From a virus: a stretch of 20,218 bases of DNA. How positions within the stretch are numbered: position 1 is the stretch's first letter; the number at the start of each line of letters is the position of its first letter. Position numbers and translations under genes: made by a program. The stretch is taken from positions 1-20,218 of IMG/VR virus record IMGVR_UViG_3300030102_000830; one strand, given 5' to 3'. Shown piece by piece: positions 5,178 through 15,977 of the stretch. Below the pieces are notes generated by a model, which made no database searches, was not told the origin of the DNA, and saw nothing but the letters and a program-made list of their open reading frames with translations.

Positions 5178-5480
5178 TTATTTTCTACGAAGTAAATGCT
5201 TAATTATGGTGGCTTGTTTTTGTAGTTTTTTGATGGCTCTATTATAGTAAGTCTTACAAGCCGATTCTGATATTCTCATGTTGAATGCTATGTCTGCAAA
5301 AGGTTTCTTATATATACTTCTGTCATAGAAGCATTGATACTCTTGGTCAGTTAATTCTCTACCTGCTACTACTCCAGTAAGTACATATTTTAGTTCTTCA
5401 AGCATTTTTGCTTGTTCTTGTTCTACTTCATCTATTAGGTCCTGATAACTTTTTGCTGTGTTTTCGATATTGTTTTTCAA
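5178..5480 (-). CDS. Sigma-70 region 4-like helix-turn-helix protein
   Basis: A 100-aa protein. After a coiled, acidic N-terminal helix (about residues 10-38), residues 43-88 follow the sigma-70 region 4 pattern: LTDQEYQCFYDRSIYKKPFADIAFNMRISESACKTYYNRAIKKL (split here only for reading), with the two HTH helices at about 59-67 and 70-83. It contains no region 2, so it is not a complete sigma factor. Small region-4-like proteins in phages often act as late-gene or packaging-gene regulators. The start is a TTG at 5480 in a TTGA overlap with the upstream methyltransferase, supported by AAGGAG seven bases before it; the first internal ATG would remove 25 residues. It is the last gene of the early operon, just before the head genes, so a role as the early-to-late switch is an attractive inference. 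Confidence 0.7.
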   Translation of the reverse strand: MKNNIENTAKSYQDLIDEVEQEQAKMLEELKYVLTGVVAGRELTDQEYQCFYDRSIYKKPFADIAFNMRISESACKTYYNRAIKKLQKQATIIKHLLRRK

Positions 5481-6766: not shown

Positions 6767-7809
6767 AATAATACCTGCTGTGATGTTCGTTTGCGAATAA
6801 GTTTTTCATATTCAGGATTTAATTCTACTCCAATCCATTTCCTAAATAAATCTTGTGCTACCATCGCAGTTGTTCCACTTCCCATAAAACAATCTAATAC
6901 TATATCATTTTCATCACTACCTGCTTTGATACAAGTTTCGGCTAATTCAGGTGGAAATACTGCAAAGTGTGCTTCTTTATATGATGCTGTTCTCATGTTC
7001 CATACACTTCTTTTATTTCTCATATTATTCGTATAACCTGCTGTGCCACCTTTTTTTAATTTTTTTATTTCATCAGGTCGCATTCCACTCCCTTTTATTG
7101 TTCTTTTTTTTACAGTATTATTTTTTACTGGCTCTAATACTTGATTAAAAAAATATTTAGGTTGTTTTGAAAATAAGAAAATATATTCATGAGATTTAGT
7201 AAATCTATCCTTAACACTTTCAGGCATTGGGTTTGGTTTATGCCAAATAATATCTTGTCTTAATATCCAACCCCATTCTTGTAATGCTATTGCTACTTTC
7301 CAGGGGATTCCCATTAATGATTTTGGTTTATAATTTTTTCCTACTTGAAAAACACCTTCTCTTTTTGTGCCATAACCAGCCCTACCACCTTGTGATGCTC
7401 TTGAATTATTTCCAGCATAACTATCACCAAGATTTAACCATAATGTACCATCATCTCTTAATACTCTATGGACTTCTGCAAATACTTCTACCATATTTTC
7501 TACAAATTCTTCAGGAGTATTTTCAAGACCTAATTGGTTGTCTTTTCTTTTAGCATTACATTTTTTGCATTCATTTTTATATTGAGTTGCTTGTGTTCCA
7601 TAAGATGTTGTTTGTTTTTTTGATTTCTCTCCCCTTCCACCTAAAATTTCAATATGGTCGCAATTAGAATCGCCACCTTCCCATTCAGCAGTTCCATAAT
7701 CTCTTAAAGCATAATAGGGTGGTGAGGTTACACACATCTGAATAGACTTATCAGGAAGTTCTTTTAACTTCTCTCTAACATCGCCTATAAGTGTATAATT
7801 AGTTTTCAT
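6763..7809 (-). CDS. DNA methyltransferase (beta class, SPPY type)
   Basis: A 348-aa SAM-dependent DNA methyltransferase. Motif IV is TSPPYYALRDYG (SPPY at 29-32); Ser in the first position is commonest among N4-cytosine enzymes but also occurs in N6-adenine ones. The SAM site is at the C-terminus (VLDCFMGSGTT, about 304-314, then IGVELNPEYE), again the beta order. A Cys/His cluster (C-x-H near residue 50, CKKC near 85-88) may bind zinc in the target-recognition region. I chose the ATG at 7809, which has an ATGA overlap with the preceding 31-aa frame and gives the usual distance to the SPPY motif; an in-frame TTG at 7833 is a poorer alternative. The tandem arrangement with a second methyltransferase suggests two different modified sequences. 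Confidence 0.88.
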   Translation of the reverse strand: MKTNYTLIGDVREKLKELPDKSIQMCVTSPPYYALRDYGTAEWEGGDSNCDHIEILGGRGEKSKKQTTSYGTQATQYKNECKKCNAKRKDNQLGLENTPEEFVENMVEVFAEVHRVLRDDGTLWLNLGDSYAGNNSRASQGGRAGYGTKREGVFQVGKNYKPKSLMGIPWKVAIALQEWGWILRQDIIWHKPNPMPESVKDRFTKSHEYIFLFSKQPKYFFNQVLEPVKNNTVKKRTIKGSGMRPDEIKKLKKGGTAGYTNNMRNKRSVWNMRTASYKEAHFAVFPPELAETCIKAGSDENDIVLDCFMGSGTTAMVAQDLFRKWIGVELNPEYEKLIRKRTSQQVLF

Positions 7810-7901
7810 AATTCTTTTGGGATAAGCTGCCAAGCCATGTGATGTAGGGTAAGATTTCCTTTCTTAGTTTCATCACAACTATCCCAAACCTTCGTAGCCA
7901 T
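7806..7901 (-). CDS. Putative 31-aa microprotein coupled to the methyltransferase
   Basis: A small frame from ATG 7901 to TGA 7806, beginning MATKVWDSCDETKKG and ending MAWQLIPKEL. Its stop overlaps the methyltransferase start as ATGA, and its 5' end overlaps the preceding gene by 23 bases, which is the packing style of the rest of the operon. An in-frame stop lies shortly upstream, so ATG 7901 is the only usual start. The ribosome-binding site is weak (CAAGA). It has no membrane segment. The frame fills an otherwise empty 69-base gap exactly, which supports it being translated, if only as a coupling peptide; function unknown. Confidence 0.55.
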   Translation of the reverse strand: MATKVWDSCDETKKGNLTLHHMAWQLIPKEL

Positions 7902-8082: not shown

Positions 8083-8442
8083 TTAAAAGTCCTCTTGTAA
8101 TTCAGGAAAGTGTTGGTCTAACCCTTTTCTTCGTAATCGTTCTATGATTCTTTTATGAGTAGATACATTTTCTTTTAGTTCTTTGTATTGAAACTTAATC
8201 CAATTAACCAACAAGTATTGTGAATCATCTACTTGAATCATACCCATCTTTTCTTTGATTACTTTAGGTATTTCTCCATCATATCCATTACAATAAAATG
8301 CAATACTTTCTTTGTCGTATTCAAAGAAACCATCATGTGAACAACTTGTACTTATGTAATACCAAAGCACTTTTTCGTGAACTGACAACTTTCTAAAAAA
8401 AGTCTTTGAATTTATATCTGCATCTAAAAATCTTTTTCTCAT
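8083..8442 (-). CDS. Replisome-organiser-like (winged-helix) protein
   Basis: A 119-aa protein whose N-terminal pattern, RKRFLDADINSKTFFRKL then EKVLWYYISTSCSHDGFFEYD (residues 2-43), resembles the N-terminal winged-helix domain of phage replisome organisers and DnaD-like initiation proteins, which read R-x-F-x-D ... L-x-x-Y-L-x-x-x-C-D-x-x-G-F-F. The C-terminal DnaD or helicase-loader part of longer relatives is absent, so only the DNA-binding-like domain remains, with a basic helical end (HKRIIERLRRKGL, about 97-109). It starts at ATG 8442 with AGGAG upstream and an ATGA overlap with the nuclease gene. If the resemblance is real it could bind the origin at 12.3 kb; this is inference and the similarity is modest. 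Confidence 0.55.
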   Translation of the reverse strand: MRKRFLDADINSKTFFRKLSVHEKVLWYYISTSCSHDGFFEYDKESIAFYCNGYDGEIPKVIKEKMGMIQVDDSQYLLVNWIKFQYKELKENVSTHKRIIERLRRKGLDQHFPELQEDF

Positions 8443-11660: not shown

Positions 11661-12182
11661 TTATTCTCCTATTCCATTTAATATATCACCATGACTTGCA
11701 TACACCGAAGGTTGTGATTCTTCGGTGTATTTTGGTTTCAAGCAAAATTCAGTCATGTGCATTTTAAACATCGCTTCTTCTCTATCACTTGCAGTAGCCC
11801 AAGATGAATTTGCTTTGTATCCTTTTTCTTCTTCAAAGATATGGATGAAGGTGACATAAATTTCTTTCAATGTTTCATTGTCATCAAATTCAAATCTAAG
11901 TTCTTCTACTTTTTGACCTTTGAAAGTGTACTTACCTGCTTTGTCATTGTATTTCCATTCTTCAGGTTCGATTGAAAAATCATTACACATCATTGTGTAT
12001 TTCTTGCAAAGCAATCTTAATGCTTTTCTTGCTTGTGCATTTTCTTGTTTGCTCATAGCAGTCATCCAACCACTTTCTATGTAGATGTCCATATCTTTAC
12101 ATTCAGCAAATTTGAATCTTTGTGCATCTTTGAAAGCAATATCATTTTCATTCAAAAATTGTTTTAGTTCTGTTCTGTTCAT
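11661..12182 (-). CDS. Hypothetical first gene of the early operon (173 aa)
   Basis: I do not recognise this 173-aa soluble protein. I chose ATG 12182 (MNRTELKQFLNENDI...), which has a strong AAGGAG site, over an in-frame ATG at 12206 that lies in the RTGTTAATTAAA leader element at the expected transcription start. It has helical N- and C-terminal parts and a central beta-rich portion (EEWKYNDKAGKYTFKGQKVE, about residues 84-103). Its first ten residues resemble those of the plus-strand gene on the other side of the origin (MN-x-x-ELK-x-x-L-x-E). As the promoter-proximal early gene next to the origin it could be a regulator or replication accessory protein, but no motif confirms that. Confidence 0.8.
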   Translation of the reverse strand: MNRTELKQFLNENDIAFKDAQRFKFAECKDMDIYIESGWMTAMSKQENAQARKALRLLCKKYTMMCNDFSIEPEEWKYNDKAGKYTFKGQKVEELRFEFDDNETLKEIYVTFIHIFEEEKGYKANSSWATASDREEAMFKMHMTEFCLKPKYTEESQPSVYASHGDILNGIGE

Positions 12183-12195
12183 TTTAACTCCTTTT

Positions 12196-12240
12196 TTAAT
12201 TAACATACTTAAGTCTAATCATCTCTACTGTTAATGTCAA
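12196..12240 (-). promoter_or_regulatory. Early promoter (leftward) with shared TTAATTAA start element
   Basis: On the minus strand: -35 TTGACA (12240-12235), a 17-base spacer, -10 TAGACT (12217-12212), then five bases and ATGTTAATTAAA (12206-12195), which covers the expected transcription start. It drives the long early operon beginning at 12182. Core and downstream element match the two other promoters described here. Confidence 0.85.
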
Positions 12241-12426
12241 GGTTTTTTTTCAAATTATTTTTTTTCTTATAATTCTTCTTATGCTTTAACTTTTTATTTA
12301 TCTTTGTCTTTGTCTTGCACCCTTAGTATAACCCTTTGATAAGTCTTGTTATCCACATAGTTATACACAATTTGTTAATATAATTATAACCCTTTATATA
12401 ACCCTTAAATTTTTTTTAAAAAAGAC
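12241..12426. other. Candidate phage replication origin (DnaA boxes, iterons, AT-rich tract)
   Basis: This non-coding region lies between divergent promoters. It holds two perfect DnaA boxes (consensus TTWTNCACA): TTATCCACA at 12349-12357 and TTATACACA at 12361-12369, in the same orientation and 12 bases apart from start to start. Around them are three copies of TATAACCCTT at 12327-12336, 12385-12394 and 12397-12406, two of them spaced 12 bases apart. The flanks are extremely AT-rich; 12241-12318 is almost pure pyrimidine on the plus strand with long T-runs, suitable for unwinding. DnaA boxes, iterons and an AT-rich unwinding zone next to replication genes are the standard components of an origin; use of host DnaA is inferred. 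Confidence 0.75.
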
Positions 12427-12471
12427 TTGCACTTTATTATTTATTGTAGTAATATAAGGTATGTTAATTAA
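12427..12471 (+). promoter_or_regulatory. Rightward promoter of the single plus-strand gene
   Basis: On the plus strand: -35 TTGCAC (12427-12432), a 17-base spacer, -10 TAATAT (12450-12455), five bases, then ATGTTAATTAAA (12461-12472) at the expected transcription start. The -35 is weaker than those of the two leftward promoters. The same start element is used, which suggests coordinated control. Confidence 0.8.
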
Positions 12472-12487
12472 ATTAAAGGAGATTACA

Positions 12488-12841
12488 ATGAACTTAAACG
12501 AATTAAAAAACAAACTTACTGAAGCAAATATTACTACATTCAACACAGAAAATGGTTTTGATGTAGACATTAACAGCAAAAAGAAATTCTTAAATCTTAT
12601 TGCTAAATTAGGTAATCATAACTACATGACATTAAATTCTAATGGAATATCATATTTCACAGAATCAAGCTATCATTCACAAGATAGATACCCAATGAAT
12701 TGTTCAACTCATCTTATGATTAAAACAGTACAACAAATTAATGTATATGGCTATCCATTAGATAGTTCAGTATTAATTGAAGTATGTGCTATGGATAAAG
12801 ATGGTAAATACAATGAAATTAGTTTTTACTTAAACAAATAA
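12488..12841 (+). CDS. Hypothetical protein, only plus-strand gene (117 aa)
   Basis: I do not recognise this 117-aa protein. I chose ATG 12488 (MNLNELKNKLTEANITTF...) with AAAGGAG seven bases upstream; an in-frame ATG at 12461 falls in the transcription-start element and is rejected. The sequence looks like a mixed alpha/beta domain with many Asn, Ser and Tyr residues and no HTH, signal or membrane segment. It is transcribed from the origin against all other genes and ends at a terminator shared with the tail operon. A divergent single gene beside the origin is the usual place for a regulator, but there is no visible DNA-binding motif. Its N-terminus resembles that of the first leftward early protein. 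Confidence 0.8.
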   Translation: MNLNELKNKLTEANITTFNTENGFDVDINSKKKFLNLIAKLGNHNYMTLNSNGISYFTESSYHSQDRYPMNCSTHLMIKTVQQINVYGYPLDSSVLIEVCAMDKDGKYNEISFYLNK

Positions 12842-12861
12842 ACTACCTCTTAGATACAAAG

Positions 12862-12887
12862 AACCCCCTAAAATAAGGGGGTTTTTT
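12862..12887. terminator. Bidirectional terminator between convergent units
   Basis: A 6-bp stem CCCCCT (12864-12869) and AGGGGG (12876-12881) with a 6-base A/T loop. On the plus strand it is followed by six T (12882-12887), giving a strong terminator for the plus-strand gene. On the minus strand the stem is followed by TTCTTTG, a weaker U-tract, and it lies 40 bases beyond the stop of the last tail gene, so it probably also ends tail transcription. Confidence 0.9.
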
Positions 12888-12926
12888 GTTTATGGGGTGA
12901 TTATATACCTTTCAGTATAAAAGTCT

Positions 12927-13691
12927 TTATTGGATTTGCTGTGTCATTTTTAATTGTGTAGAAAAGCGACCATCTGCGATTTCGGTAAATGTCATAGCTT
13001 CAAGTCTAACCCAATGATGATTTGTCCCATCAAACCAAACCATCTTTTTTGCATTAGCTTTATTAAAATTTTGCATAGTAATTAAATCAGATTTAAATGT
13101 GCTTGATATGTTTTGAAATGATATAGTAAATACTTCTTGTCCTGGATTTACATTAATAGCATAAGAAACTCCACCAAGACTTGTATTTATTTCGTTGTTA
13201 TAGTCAATAGTAGATTGAACATTGACATCAGGTTCTATTTCAAAGTTTAGTTTTTTACCAATAAGGATTTCTGATACATTAGATACTGATGCATTAAATT
13301 CAGTAAAGAATTTTGTTCCAGTAGTTTCAGTTAAATCTGTTACTGCCCACCCTGCACCACTTACTGCCGATATAGTTCCTTTGCTTGGTAAACTTATTCT
13401 ATCAATATCTATAAAGAATGTCATAATAGTCCCACTTGCAACTCCATCATCTCCAGTAAAATAAACTGCTGCTGCATCTGCTGTTGCACTACTACCAACT
13501 GCATATTCTATTGCATCTCTATCTGCTACTCCTGAAAGTACAGTTCCGATATTTTGGTCTGATGCTCTTTCATGTGAAGTTAAAGTATCTGATGCAGAAA
13601 ATGTTGGTGTTCCACTATCTGTCATTTGACCTTCTGTAATTGTGTTATCACTTCTATATTGATTGATTGAATCATAAATAAAGTACGACAT
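12927..13691 (-). CDS. Distal tail / tail-tip-associated structural protein
   Basis: A 254-aa protein rich in Ser, Thr, Gly and Asn with many short beta strands, typical of phage structural surface proteins. The N-terminal 60 residues look like an extended or adaptor segment; the remainder could be one or two beta-sandwich domains of carbohydrate-binding type, ending in a strand-rich motif (MVWFDGTNHHWVRLEAMTF, about residues 216-234). No enzymatic site is visible. It begins at ATG 13691, immediately after the stop of the large tail-tip gene (TAAATG), and is the last gene of the tail operon, the usual location for a receptor-contacting or minor tail protein. Receptor binding is inferred from position and composition. 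Confidence 0.65.
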   Translation of the reverse strand: MSYFIYDSINQYRSDNTITEGQMTDSGTPTFSASDTLTSHERASDQNIGTVLSGVADRDAIEYAVGSSATADAAAVYFTGDDGVASGTIMTFFIDIDRISLPSKGTISAVSGAGWAVTDLTETTGTKFFTEFNASVSNVSEILIGKKLNFEIEPDVNVQSTIDYNNEINTSLGGVSYAINVNPGQEVFTISFQNISSTFKSDLITMQNFNKANAKKMVWFDGTNHHWVRLEAMTFTEIADGRFSTQLKMTQQIQ

Positions 13692-15977
13692 TTAAACCTC
13701 TCTACATTGTACTGAAACTTTACCTACTTGTCGTTTCAGATTTGTTATTATAAATTTTTTCCCACTCCAGGCATCCTTGAATAAACGAGTCGGCATTGAT
13801 ACATACGAGTCGAAGGTGTCTGATATTTCATTAAATGGACTTCCAAGTTCTTCAAAAGTAATCTCTCCAAAGTCTATGTAATCTCCAACTTGTAGCATTC
13901 CATATTTTTCAGGATTGACTAAAGTTGCATTTACTGTAGTTTTGTAATCTCCAAATAGACTTTCTCTAAAATTAATCCAACTGGAATTTCTTGAACCTAC
14001 CACATCTGCTACTGCATCATATAATAAATCAAGATTGACTTCTTGCTTTTGAATATCTGCATCACCAAAAATAGTAGTATGAGTTGATGCTGTAAAAGTA
14101 TCTTGTAATAGATATTCATTTTCGGCAGGATGTTTTTTGTAATTTACAAGCAATCTTGTTTCCAAATCTTGTGCCGAAGTAATCCCAAGTTCATATCCAC
14201 TAATATCATTTTGTGATAAATCAACATTAGCAGTAACACTATCTTCAATAGTAAAGTATCGTAATCCTGATACACCACTTATTGCAGTTTGTTGTGCTTG
14301 TGGACTAAACTCAAAAAAGAAACATCCTTCATATTGTAGTTGTTCCATAATACTTTCTAAAGATTCTTGTTCATCTAAAGCTAATCGTGTTTTCCAATGA
14401 GTTGATGTTGGACTGGTTGTAGTAGAATCTCTTAATTCTGCTACTGTTTTAAATCCTGAATTTTCAATATCAGTATCTCCAGTAAAATCAGTTACATTGA
14501 TAATGCTATGTAATAATTCTCTATGAATCGCTACTGGATTATTTAAATCTCCAATAGTAGTTGCAGTAGTATGTTCTGTGAAACTTGGTGTTGTAATATC
14601 TCTACCTAAATATACTTTTTCAATCCCTGCATTAAATTCTTGTGATGCAATCGGCTCATTTGCCAAGTCATTGGTTGCAGTAACTGTTACAAATACATTA
14701 CTTAATACGATTTCAAAATTACTATAATCTCCATTACCACCTTCTGCATTAAATCTAAAACTCAAATATAGCTCATCAGGTAAGGCATTGTTTTCTAATA
14801 TTCCTGATATATCTGTTGATGTTGGTAAAGCTACATTGGTTCTATCAAGTTTATCTCCACTTGAAGAAGTTCCTACTAATTCTATATCTCCACTTGATGA
14901 ACCAAAACTTCCACTTAGTGCATCTGCTAAATTAAAGAATGCACCATCAGTTCCACTTGGACTACCAGTTATGGTTTGACTATAATTACCTGATAACCCT
15001 AATGTAATTGCAGTAATCTTACCAGTTACTTGTGGCATTTGTAATTTAAATACTACACCTTTTGATTCACTACCAAACCCTGCTGTATTAGCATAAGTAG
15101 CATTGTTTCCTGTATTACCATTATAAGCATTATCAAGACTTCCTGAAGTTAAACTTACACCACTTCCAACAAGTGTTGCAGTTACATCATCAGGTAGCAT
15201 CTTAAATTGTCTTGTCATTAATGTTGGAACTTTTAATACTTTGACACTATCTACTGTTGCTATGGTAGTATTGGTATTGACTAATTCTACAAATCGTTTC
15301 ATTCCCTTGTCATAGAACTCTAATTTATCTGTTCCACTTGTTCCTTCAGGGACTATGTACATAAAATCTTTACCATCATTTTTAAGGAATGGACAAGCAT
15401 AGACATCTTGCCCATTTACAAATTCAGTATTGGCAGTATAGTCCCCATAAACCAAAGGGACTATCTTGTTATTGTATTGTGAATTGTCTGCATTTACACT
15501 TCTGCCTTGTGGAATAGACACATTCTGAAATGGTCTGTTAGATATGACATTCAATACAATAGTATTATTTCTATAACCAAAACTGGATACTTTACCACTA
15601 AAGATTTGTAAAGCATTATTTGCAGTATCATCTCCATCTATTTGAGATAATACATTGACATGACCATTGATGTATTCATTTCCTAACAATTCCAATAAGG
15701 TAGTTCCATCTAAATCGATATTGGCTATGTTTAGATTAATATTACCAGTCTTGGTTGTGAATCCTTTTAAATCCAATGAATAAGATATGCTTGGCTTGTT
15801 TAAGATTGCAGGATAATAGTTTATGCTATTGTAAGTAGTAGCAGAAAAACTAAATGCTAAATCAGGAGTATTAGTTGTTAAGATACTTGAATTATTATTT
15901 TTAAATATCTGCACTAACCAATTTTCAGTCATGGTTGGTGATAGCTTTGATTCATAGTTTGAATTAACAAAACTCAT
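13692..15977 (-). CDS. Tail-tip / baseplate hub-like protein
   Basis: The largest protein in the window (761 aa). The N-terminal region (about 1-190) has repeated beta-strand units, including IFSGKVSSFGYRNNTIVLNV and IVPLVYGDY, of the kind seen at the N-terminus of siphoviral tail-tip or hub proteins that cap the tail tube. The middle (about 260-460) is Ser/Thr/Gly-rich and may form an inserted beta-sandwich (ends of the putative lectin- or fiber-like part). The C-terminal third (about 540-761) resembles hub domain structure with DEQESLESIMEQLQYEGCFF. The role is closing the tail tube and starting host contact. It follows the tape measure and chaperone genes in the order usual for siphoviruses. 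It has an ATGA overlap with the upstream gene. Confidence 0.7.
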   Translation of the reverse strand: MSFVNSNYESKLSPTMTENWLVQIFKNNNSSILTTNTPDLAFSFSATTYNSINYYPAILNKPSISYSLDLKGFTTKTGNINLNIANIDLDGTTLLELLGNEYINGHVNVLSQIDGDDTANNALQIFSGKVSSFGYRNNTIVLNVISNRPFQNVSIPQGRSVNADNSQYNNKIVPLVYGDYTANTEFVNGQDVYACPFLKNDGKDFMYIVPEGTSGTDKLEFYDKGMKRFVELVNTNTTIATVDSVKVLKVPTLMTRQFKMLPDDVTATLVGSGVSLTSGSLDNAYNGNTGNNATYANTAGFGSESKGVVFKLQMPQVTGKITAITLGLSGNYSQTITGSPSGTDGAFFNLADALSGSFGSSSGDIELVGTSSSGDKLDRTNVALPTSTDISGILENNALPDELYLSFRFNAEGGNGDYSNFEIVLSNVFVTVTATNDLANEPIASQEFNAGIEKVYLGRDITTPSFTEHTTATTIGDLNNPVAIHRELLHSIINVTDFTGDTDIENSGFKTVAELRDSTTTSPTSTHWKTRLALDEQESLESIMEQLQYEGCFFFEFSPQAQQTAISGVSGLRYFTIEDSVTANVDLSQNDISGYELGITSAQDLETRLLVNYKKHPAENEYLLQDTFTASTHTTIFGDADIQKQEVNLDLLYDAVADVVGSRNSSWINFRESLFGDYKTTVNATLVNPEKYGMLQVGDYIDFGEITFEELGSPFNEISDTFDSYVSMPTRLFKDAWSGKKFIITNLKRQVGKVSVQCREV

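Follow-up and report, generated by a model that had tools for sequence, protein, structure and literature searches.

Does a short non-coding gap in an uncultured marine virus of bacteria hold the site where its DNA starts to be copied, and whose proteins would open it? The window analysed here is the entire record of this virus (20218 bases). It encodes terminase, head and tail genes together with an early block of two methyltransferases, an exonuclease, a resolvase-like nuclease, a protein with a weak SSB-like match and a sigma-region-4-like protein. The gene-like ORFs lie on the minus strand, except for one plus-strand gene adjoining the gap, which extends between 12206 and 12488 and separates divergent genes. 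We consider it rather likely that 12259-12378 is the compact replication origin of a marine siphophage of ~29-30 kb, opened by host DnaA, probably with help from a phage protein.

The divergent gap and its box pair

The preliminary description of this DNA had proposed an AT-rich gap flanked by divergent promoters. Both features were recovered, with 27% GC in the bin 12001-13000 and one promoter candidate facing outwards on each strand. The elements of the site and of its surroundings are the following:

8083-8442, minus strand: 119-aa protein with a winged-helix model and a weak Phage_rep_org_N match, candidate phage co-initiator
11661-12206, minus strand: first early gene (181 aa, no family), not found in most relatives
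12212-12240, minus strand: candidate early promoter TTGACA-17-TAGACT, found by the promoter scan, reading away from the site
12259-12318, plus strand: T-rich tract with all CTT in one 3-bp register, candidate unwinding element
12319-12348, plus strand: linker from the tract to box 1 with one AACCCTT, conserved by identity to relatives
12327-12336, plus strand: first copy of TATAACCCTT; AAGGGTT, in opposite orientation, in some relatives
12349-12357, plus strand: DnaA box 1, TTATCCACA, a strict consensus match conserved in relatives
12361-12369, plus strand: DnaA box 2, TTATACACA, which matches TTATNCACA only; TTATCCACA in many relatives
12376-12475, no strand: 100 bp adjoining the boxes with the lowest nearest-neighbour stability in the window (7744-7843 when the window is reversed)
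12385-12394, plus strand: second copy of TATAACCCTT, missing in relatives without the right-hand gene
12397-12406, plus strand: third copy of TATAACCCTT, likewise missing in relatives without that gene
12427-12455, plus strand: promoter-like TTGCAC-17-TAATAT of the right-hand gene, read from the letters and not returned by the promoter scan
12488-12841, plus strand: right-hand gene of 117 aa (126 aa if started at the ATG at 12461), without a family; relatives have another protein here
12862-12883, both strands: terminator-like hairpin between the right-hand gene and the late genes

The two boxes lie on the same strand at a start-to-start distance of 12 (3-bp gap), and the window has no further TTATNCACA site. 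Taken alone, their count is chance-like (2 against 1.7 expected in 20 kb), but their tandem pairing is beyond chance expectation, as a same-strand pair within 23 bp occurred in none of 1500 order-2 Markov simulated windows. The description of two perfect boxes 12 apart is thus accurate for positions and spacing, while the strict consensus applies to box 1 and not to box 2. As for the decamer TATAACCCTT, the window contains exactly three copies, and three within 70 bp were never obtained in 1500 simulations. Among 25 sequences of the family, however, three copies are found in 6 only and at least one in 19, so that the three repeats reported for the window do exist, but their reading as a conserved set of three iterons is not supported. 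The shorter AACCCTT or its reverse complement AAGGGTT is present in 24 of the 25 sequences, at least twice in 21 of them.

Conservation of the element in relatives

Searches with the 181-aa gene (one contig) and with the 119-aa protein (31 contigs) yielded 32 loci, 18 of which hold sequence upstream of the early block, the other 14 falling short of it. Fourteen loci span the region from tail gene to early block and a fifteenth, L010, extends far enough. The pair occurs at the same place, between tail and early genes, in all 15 relatives covering it, and the neighbouring genes differ among them. Each of the 15 has at least one exact TTATNCACA; 12 have two, spaced by 12, 21 or 22 bp, and L006, L018 and L019 have one of the two sites with one mismatch. 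A collection-wide pattern (linker plus box 1) returned 20 stretches with nine new sites, where the second box was present with at most one mismatch in every case. Counting these nine sites, found by a pattern that itself includes box 1, the pair is present in 24/24 relatives, with two exact boxes in 18 and a single mismatch in one box in 6. The spacing is 12 bp in 17 relatives, 21 bp in five and 22 bp in two, which is one or two turns of DNA, as for a one- or two-turn rule.

Preservation of the boxes while the rest drifts had been put forward as a check on the origin, and this is the pattern that we observed. A core of ~120 bp (12259-12378) shows a ten-column identity to the window of 0.81-0.98, against 0.23-0.66 to its left and 0.19-0.47 past 12489; the intervening 12379-12488, which holds the promoter and leader of the plus-strand gene, is less conserved than the core (0.58-0.85). 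The core was not found in the plasmids searched. An RNA element was considered and discarded, all Rfam matches being far below gathering scores. The last three of the 18 loci (L009, L017 and L030) have their first base within the conserved element and do not extend to the boxes, as though assembly tended to stop close to the variable right-hand slot.

The left part of the core is a T-rich tract of ~60 bp, in which CTT occurs in a single 3-bp register in 25/25 sequences (63 bases tested each), with 8/8 CTT in register in the window, 12/12 in the divergent L036 and 3/3 in L006. Since this test was devised after inspecting the sequences and the family members are related, the shuffle values it gave should not be taken as independent probabilities. 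That the register stems from coding was set aside: frames were read by eye in a few family sequences, and the tract lies upstream of both promoters. TTGT and TTATT occur within the tract on the plus strand only. The E. coli box R1 has the orientation opposite to that of the window's boxes, and the window family has only two or three boxes, unlike E. coli oriC. The likeness to oriC lies in a T-rich strand 5' of the boxes carrying TTGT and TTATT, motifs that are described as bound by DnaA in single-stranded form (PMC10797057). The tract also bears a resemblance to the TnnT repeats, on the strand opposite the trios, that are reported as bound by B. subtilis DnaD (PMC10201434), an analogy that may serve as a lead.

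Because the site precedes the early promoter and, in the window, also adjoins the plus-strand promoter, the boxes might act as a transcription switch, with DnaA activating or repressing the divergent promoters and replication starting elsewhere. For lambda, DnaA-box-like sequences protected by DnaA are described downstream of promoter pO (PMC3985674). The -35 element of the early promoter is also present in several relatives, and TTGCAC-17-TAATAT is kept in most relatives with a filled right-hand slot. However, the boxes are about 110 bp upstream of the early -35 with the conserved tract in between, L007, L008, L020, L026 and L028 keep the pair but lack the right-hand promoter, and no other origin candidate was seen in the sequence. 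More generally, the box pair persists where the right-hand slot is empty, no gene being found there in these five loci or in L036. We thus regard a mere switch as unlikely.

Tandem boxes in other viral contigs

Tandem DnaA boxes were then sought in viral contigs at large. A scan for two TTATCCACA with 3-14 bases between them returned at least 120 stretches, compared with 65 in the full scan for the reversed-box control. Since the control gave that many, some pairs may be due to chance, and the argument rests on spacing rather than on count. Same-strand distances up to 60 bp in 120 of these loci (L052-L171) are mostly 11-13, 20-24, 29-34, 40-45 and 52-57, whereas those in the 65 control loci are mostly multiples of three. 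Once reduced to 73 non-redundant clusters, the pairs are spaced by 12-13 bp in 35 clusters, 14-18 bp in 3 and 19-23 bp in 35. This departs from a flat distribution (chi-square p 3e-25), from which the reversed-box control also departs. In a phase test, periods of 9 to 11 fit alike, so that the signal is not specific for 10.5 bp. A scan for out-of-phase spacings (15-17) also gave at least 120 matches, one such locus (L102) being among the 120 loci taken from the first scan. As out-of-phase pairs are also numerous, helical spacing is a preference and not an exclusion. With that meaning, tandem DnaA boxes prefer helical spacings beyond the window's family, in unrelated viral contigs.

The surroundings of these pairs were surveyed at 63 cluster representatives (loci of at least 5 kb), where 129 of 166 neighbouring proteins were scanned (those within 1.1 kb; the 166 lie within 1.5 kb). 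They include terminases, an endolysin, and O-like and DnaD-like replication proteins, and on this basis many of the surveyed contigs are phages. In 17/63 representatives, the pair is contained in an ORF of at least 100 aa. An isolated example is Lactococcus phage AM1, in which three TTATCCACA boxes around 14834-14866 are spaced by 12 and 22; it is a 125-kb phage whose match to the family core is confined to 33 bases at the boxes. The AM1 boxes are located in a 1.6-kb gap without annotated genes (L256:2791-4398), between convergent genes. A predicted origin with DnaA boxes is also described for Pseudomonas phage PseuGes_254 (PMC11512268). The literature searched, most subscription journals lying outside it, listed no study that surveys such tandem boxes in phages.

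The recurrence of this arrangement bears on a second alternative, in which the element binds a phage protein or serves packaging or partition and its resemblance to DnaA boxes is incidental. Conservation of the T-rich tract and of the linker is about equal to that of the boxes, which would fit such a role. Nevertheless, an exact DnaA consensus in two or three copies, at a helical spacing shared with unrelated viral contigs, makes this explanation improbable in our view. Returning to an origin opened by DnaA, we put forward as a tentative and still doubtful extension that tandem-box host-DnaA origins, with boxes one or two turns apart, are common and largely unrecorded in phages, and that the boxes of this marine family act with a new kind of unwinding element, a T-rich tract with CTT in strict 3-bp register, read by host DnaA or by the winged-helix protein. 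Origins of metagenomic phages are mostly unmapped. If the site is indeed an origin, a simple rule, namely a pair of DnaA boxes spaced by 12 or about 21 bp, could help to locate them. The family would also offer a portable origin of ~120 bp from uncultured marine phages, whose replication would be tied to the control of initiation in the host itself. The tract's 3-bp register lends itself to direct testing.

Host functions, a candidate phage partner and known origins

Four contigs of 28.8-30.0 kb represent nearly the whole genome, and these four end at differing genes, as would be expected of a circular map. For two near-complete relatives (29-30 kb, 58 ORFs), no polymerase, primase or helicase was present among the best 25 of 31 Pfam families or among the best 25 of 79 PHROG families, which agrees with what had been noted for the window; both relatives encode a small winged-helix protein akin to replisome organisers. 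The proposed GC-skew check gave the site no support. Cumulative skew follows the coding strand and climbs monotonically over the whole genome, and in none of the four near-complete contigs does its detrended minimum coincide with the boxes; a skew minimum was consequently rejected as proof of an origin. The detrended minimum of the window alone does fall near the boxes, but it was given no weight since the window is a fragment. Regarding DNA stability, one of the six least stable stretches lies no more than about 150 bp from the boxes in G001, G002, G003 and G006, and not in G004.

The pair and its adjoining DNA, kept in relatives, suggest that the virus starts copying its DNA with host machinery. 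We infer a sequence of events in which host DnaA would bind both boxes, which face the same side of the helix, and, together with a phage protein, would melt the adjoining T-rich tract. The candidate partner is the 119-aa winged helix, which may also read the AACCCTT/AAGGGTT elements. Host helicase and polymerase would be loaded at the melted tract, a step that we propose because none was found encoded by the phage, and theta replication would follow. From the preliminary description of a host-DnaA origin, the pair and the missing replication enzymes are retained, whereas the iteron set and the supposed rarity of such initiation are not, and its GC-skew check lends no support; the winged-helix protein, the helical box spacing and the T-rich tract kept in relatives are additions to it. 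The rarity was overstated: reliance on the host's polymerase is no exception among phages, no polymerase, helicase or primase gene being described for pelagiphage Skadi (PMC10504331), and tandem boxes occur in many viral contigs. Skadi and HTVC026P are likewise marine phages that seem to rely on host replication enzymes (PMC10504331). HTVC026P, an isolated pelagiphage of 32 kb, has no annotated polymerase and an annotated DnaD-domain protein, and no tandem DnaA box pair was found in it. A use of the boxes as a decoy titrating host DnaA and stopping host replication is very improbable: many phage copies would, by inference, bring many boxes, but there are only two or three sites per genome at that place, and the T-rich register, the fixed spacing and the position would be left unexplained.

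The fold of the candidate partner is a modelled one. The 119-aa protein, aligned over 16 members, gave a model with a pLDDT of 87.6 and a pTM of 0.81, and the order of its helices and strands and its structural matches are those predicted of a winged helix. Its match to Phage_rep_org_N (PF09681) reaches 14.6 bits, below the curated cut-off of 23.3 (E 0.033). Its best viral matches are unnamed and are followed by replisome-organiser models at E of about 0.03-0.2. VIA Z scores of the model are at most 5.5, to transcription regulators, with a Z of 4.2 to a Rep-DNA entry among many regulators. No solved structure appeared at E <= 0.001 among the fold-library matches listed and none was significant by sequence, nor was there any match in NCBIfam or any relative in bacterial genomes. 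Among known phages, only Pseudanabaena phage Pan5 has a relative (26%). L006, which was found without the 119-aa query, also encodes the protein.

Among known systems, P1 oriR and the iteron plasmid origins with DnaA boxes (F, RK2) similarly combine boxes, short repeats and AT-rich DNA in a compact region, and in the window and its relatives the boxes are close together as in an origin of the P1 oriR type. P1 is listed among plasmid origins with DnaA boxes (PMC4980987), and host DnaA is described as assisting a replicon-encoded initiator in P1 and iteron plasmid origins (PMC4980987, PMC10797057). Differences are nonetheless clear. The annotated DnaA site of P1 spans 18 bp (two adjoining 9-mers), while the boxes of the window family are 12 or 21-22 bp apart; P1 has five 19-bp RepA iterons 21-22 bp apart, compared with poorly kept repeats of 7-10 bp; and no RepA relative was found in the window family, unlike P1. 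In Bacillus, the tract and the boxes are ordered so that the tract is on the side opposite to that of the window. The DnaA-trio reading is not convincing: NTN runs of at least 3 triplets occur 3' of the boxes in 22/25 family sequences as raw counts, but alike runs are found on the other side in many, without clear asymmetry in the family, and 1/73 survey clusters per side is below p 0.05, which is no excess. The window tract is about 30 bp from the boxes versus 0-16 in the Bacillus system, with no trio excess on the expected side. What is shared with the B. subtilis basal unwinding system, as described in PMC8287927, is a tandem pair, its boxes separated by no more than 3 bp, close to a tract in 3-bp register; the window and 17/24 relatives have such a gap (12-bp spacing), the other 7/24 having a spacing of 21-22 bp. 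On the assumption of gaps up to 3 bp, tandem boxes are given there as the box arrangement predicted most often in bacterial oriC, at 57% (PMC8287927), and the activity of a DnaA box at a distance is reported to show helical phasing in B. subtilis (PMC6669920).

The genes around the site deserve separate mention. Portal and capsid have no relatives among known phages, and TerL shows 37-39% among the matches listed to known phages. The region 12427-12841 looks like a cargo slot, in which an alike promoter and leader precede differing small proteins (L006, L011, L015, L018, L019, L029, L031 and L032). An alike leader precedes three window genes (12459-12508, plus strand; 12208-12162 and 4979-4943, minus strand), and the right-hand gene (12488-12841) recurs at 97% identity near terminase genes in L035:3841-4191, as though this cassette were mobile. 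Relatives exchange genes in their early block, where a Mom-like modification gene, nucleases of the NinG-like and endonuclease-VII-like types and methyltransferases come in, as seen at L011:7414-8049, L011:6063-6503, L029:8597-9343 and L036:6972-7637. Finally, the sigma-70 region-4-like protein (5178-5480, minus strand) is conserved in relatives and may be a late regulator.
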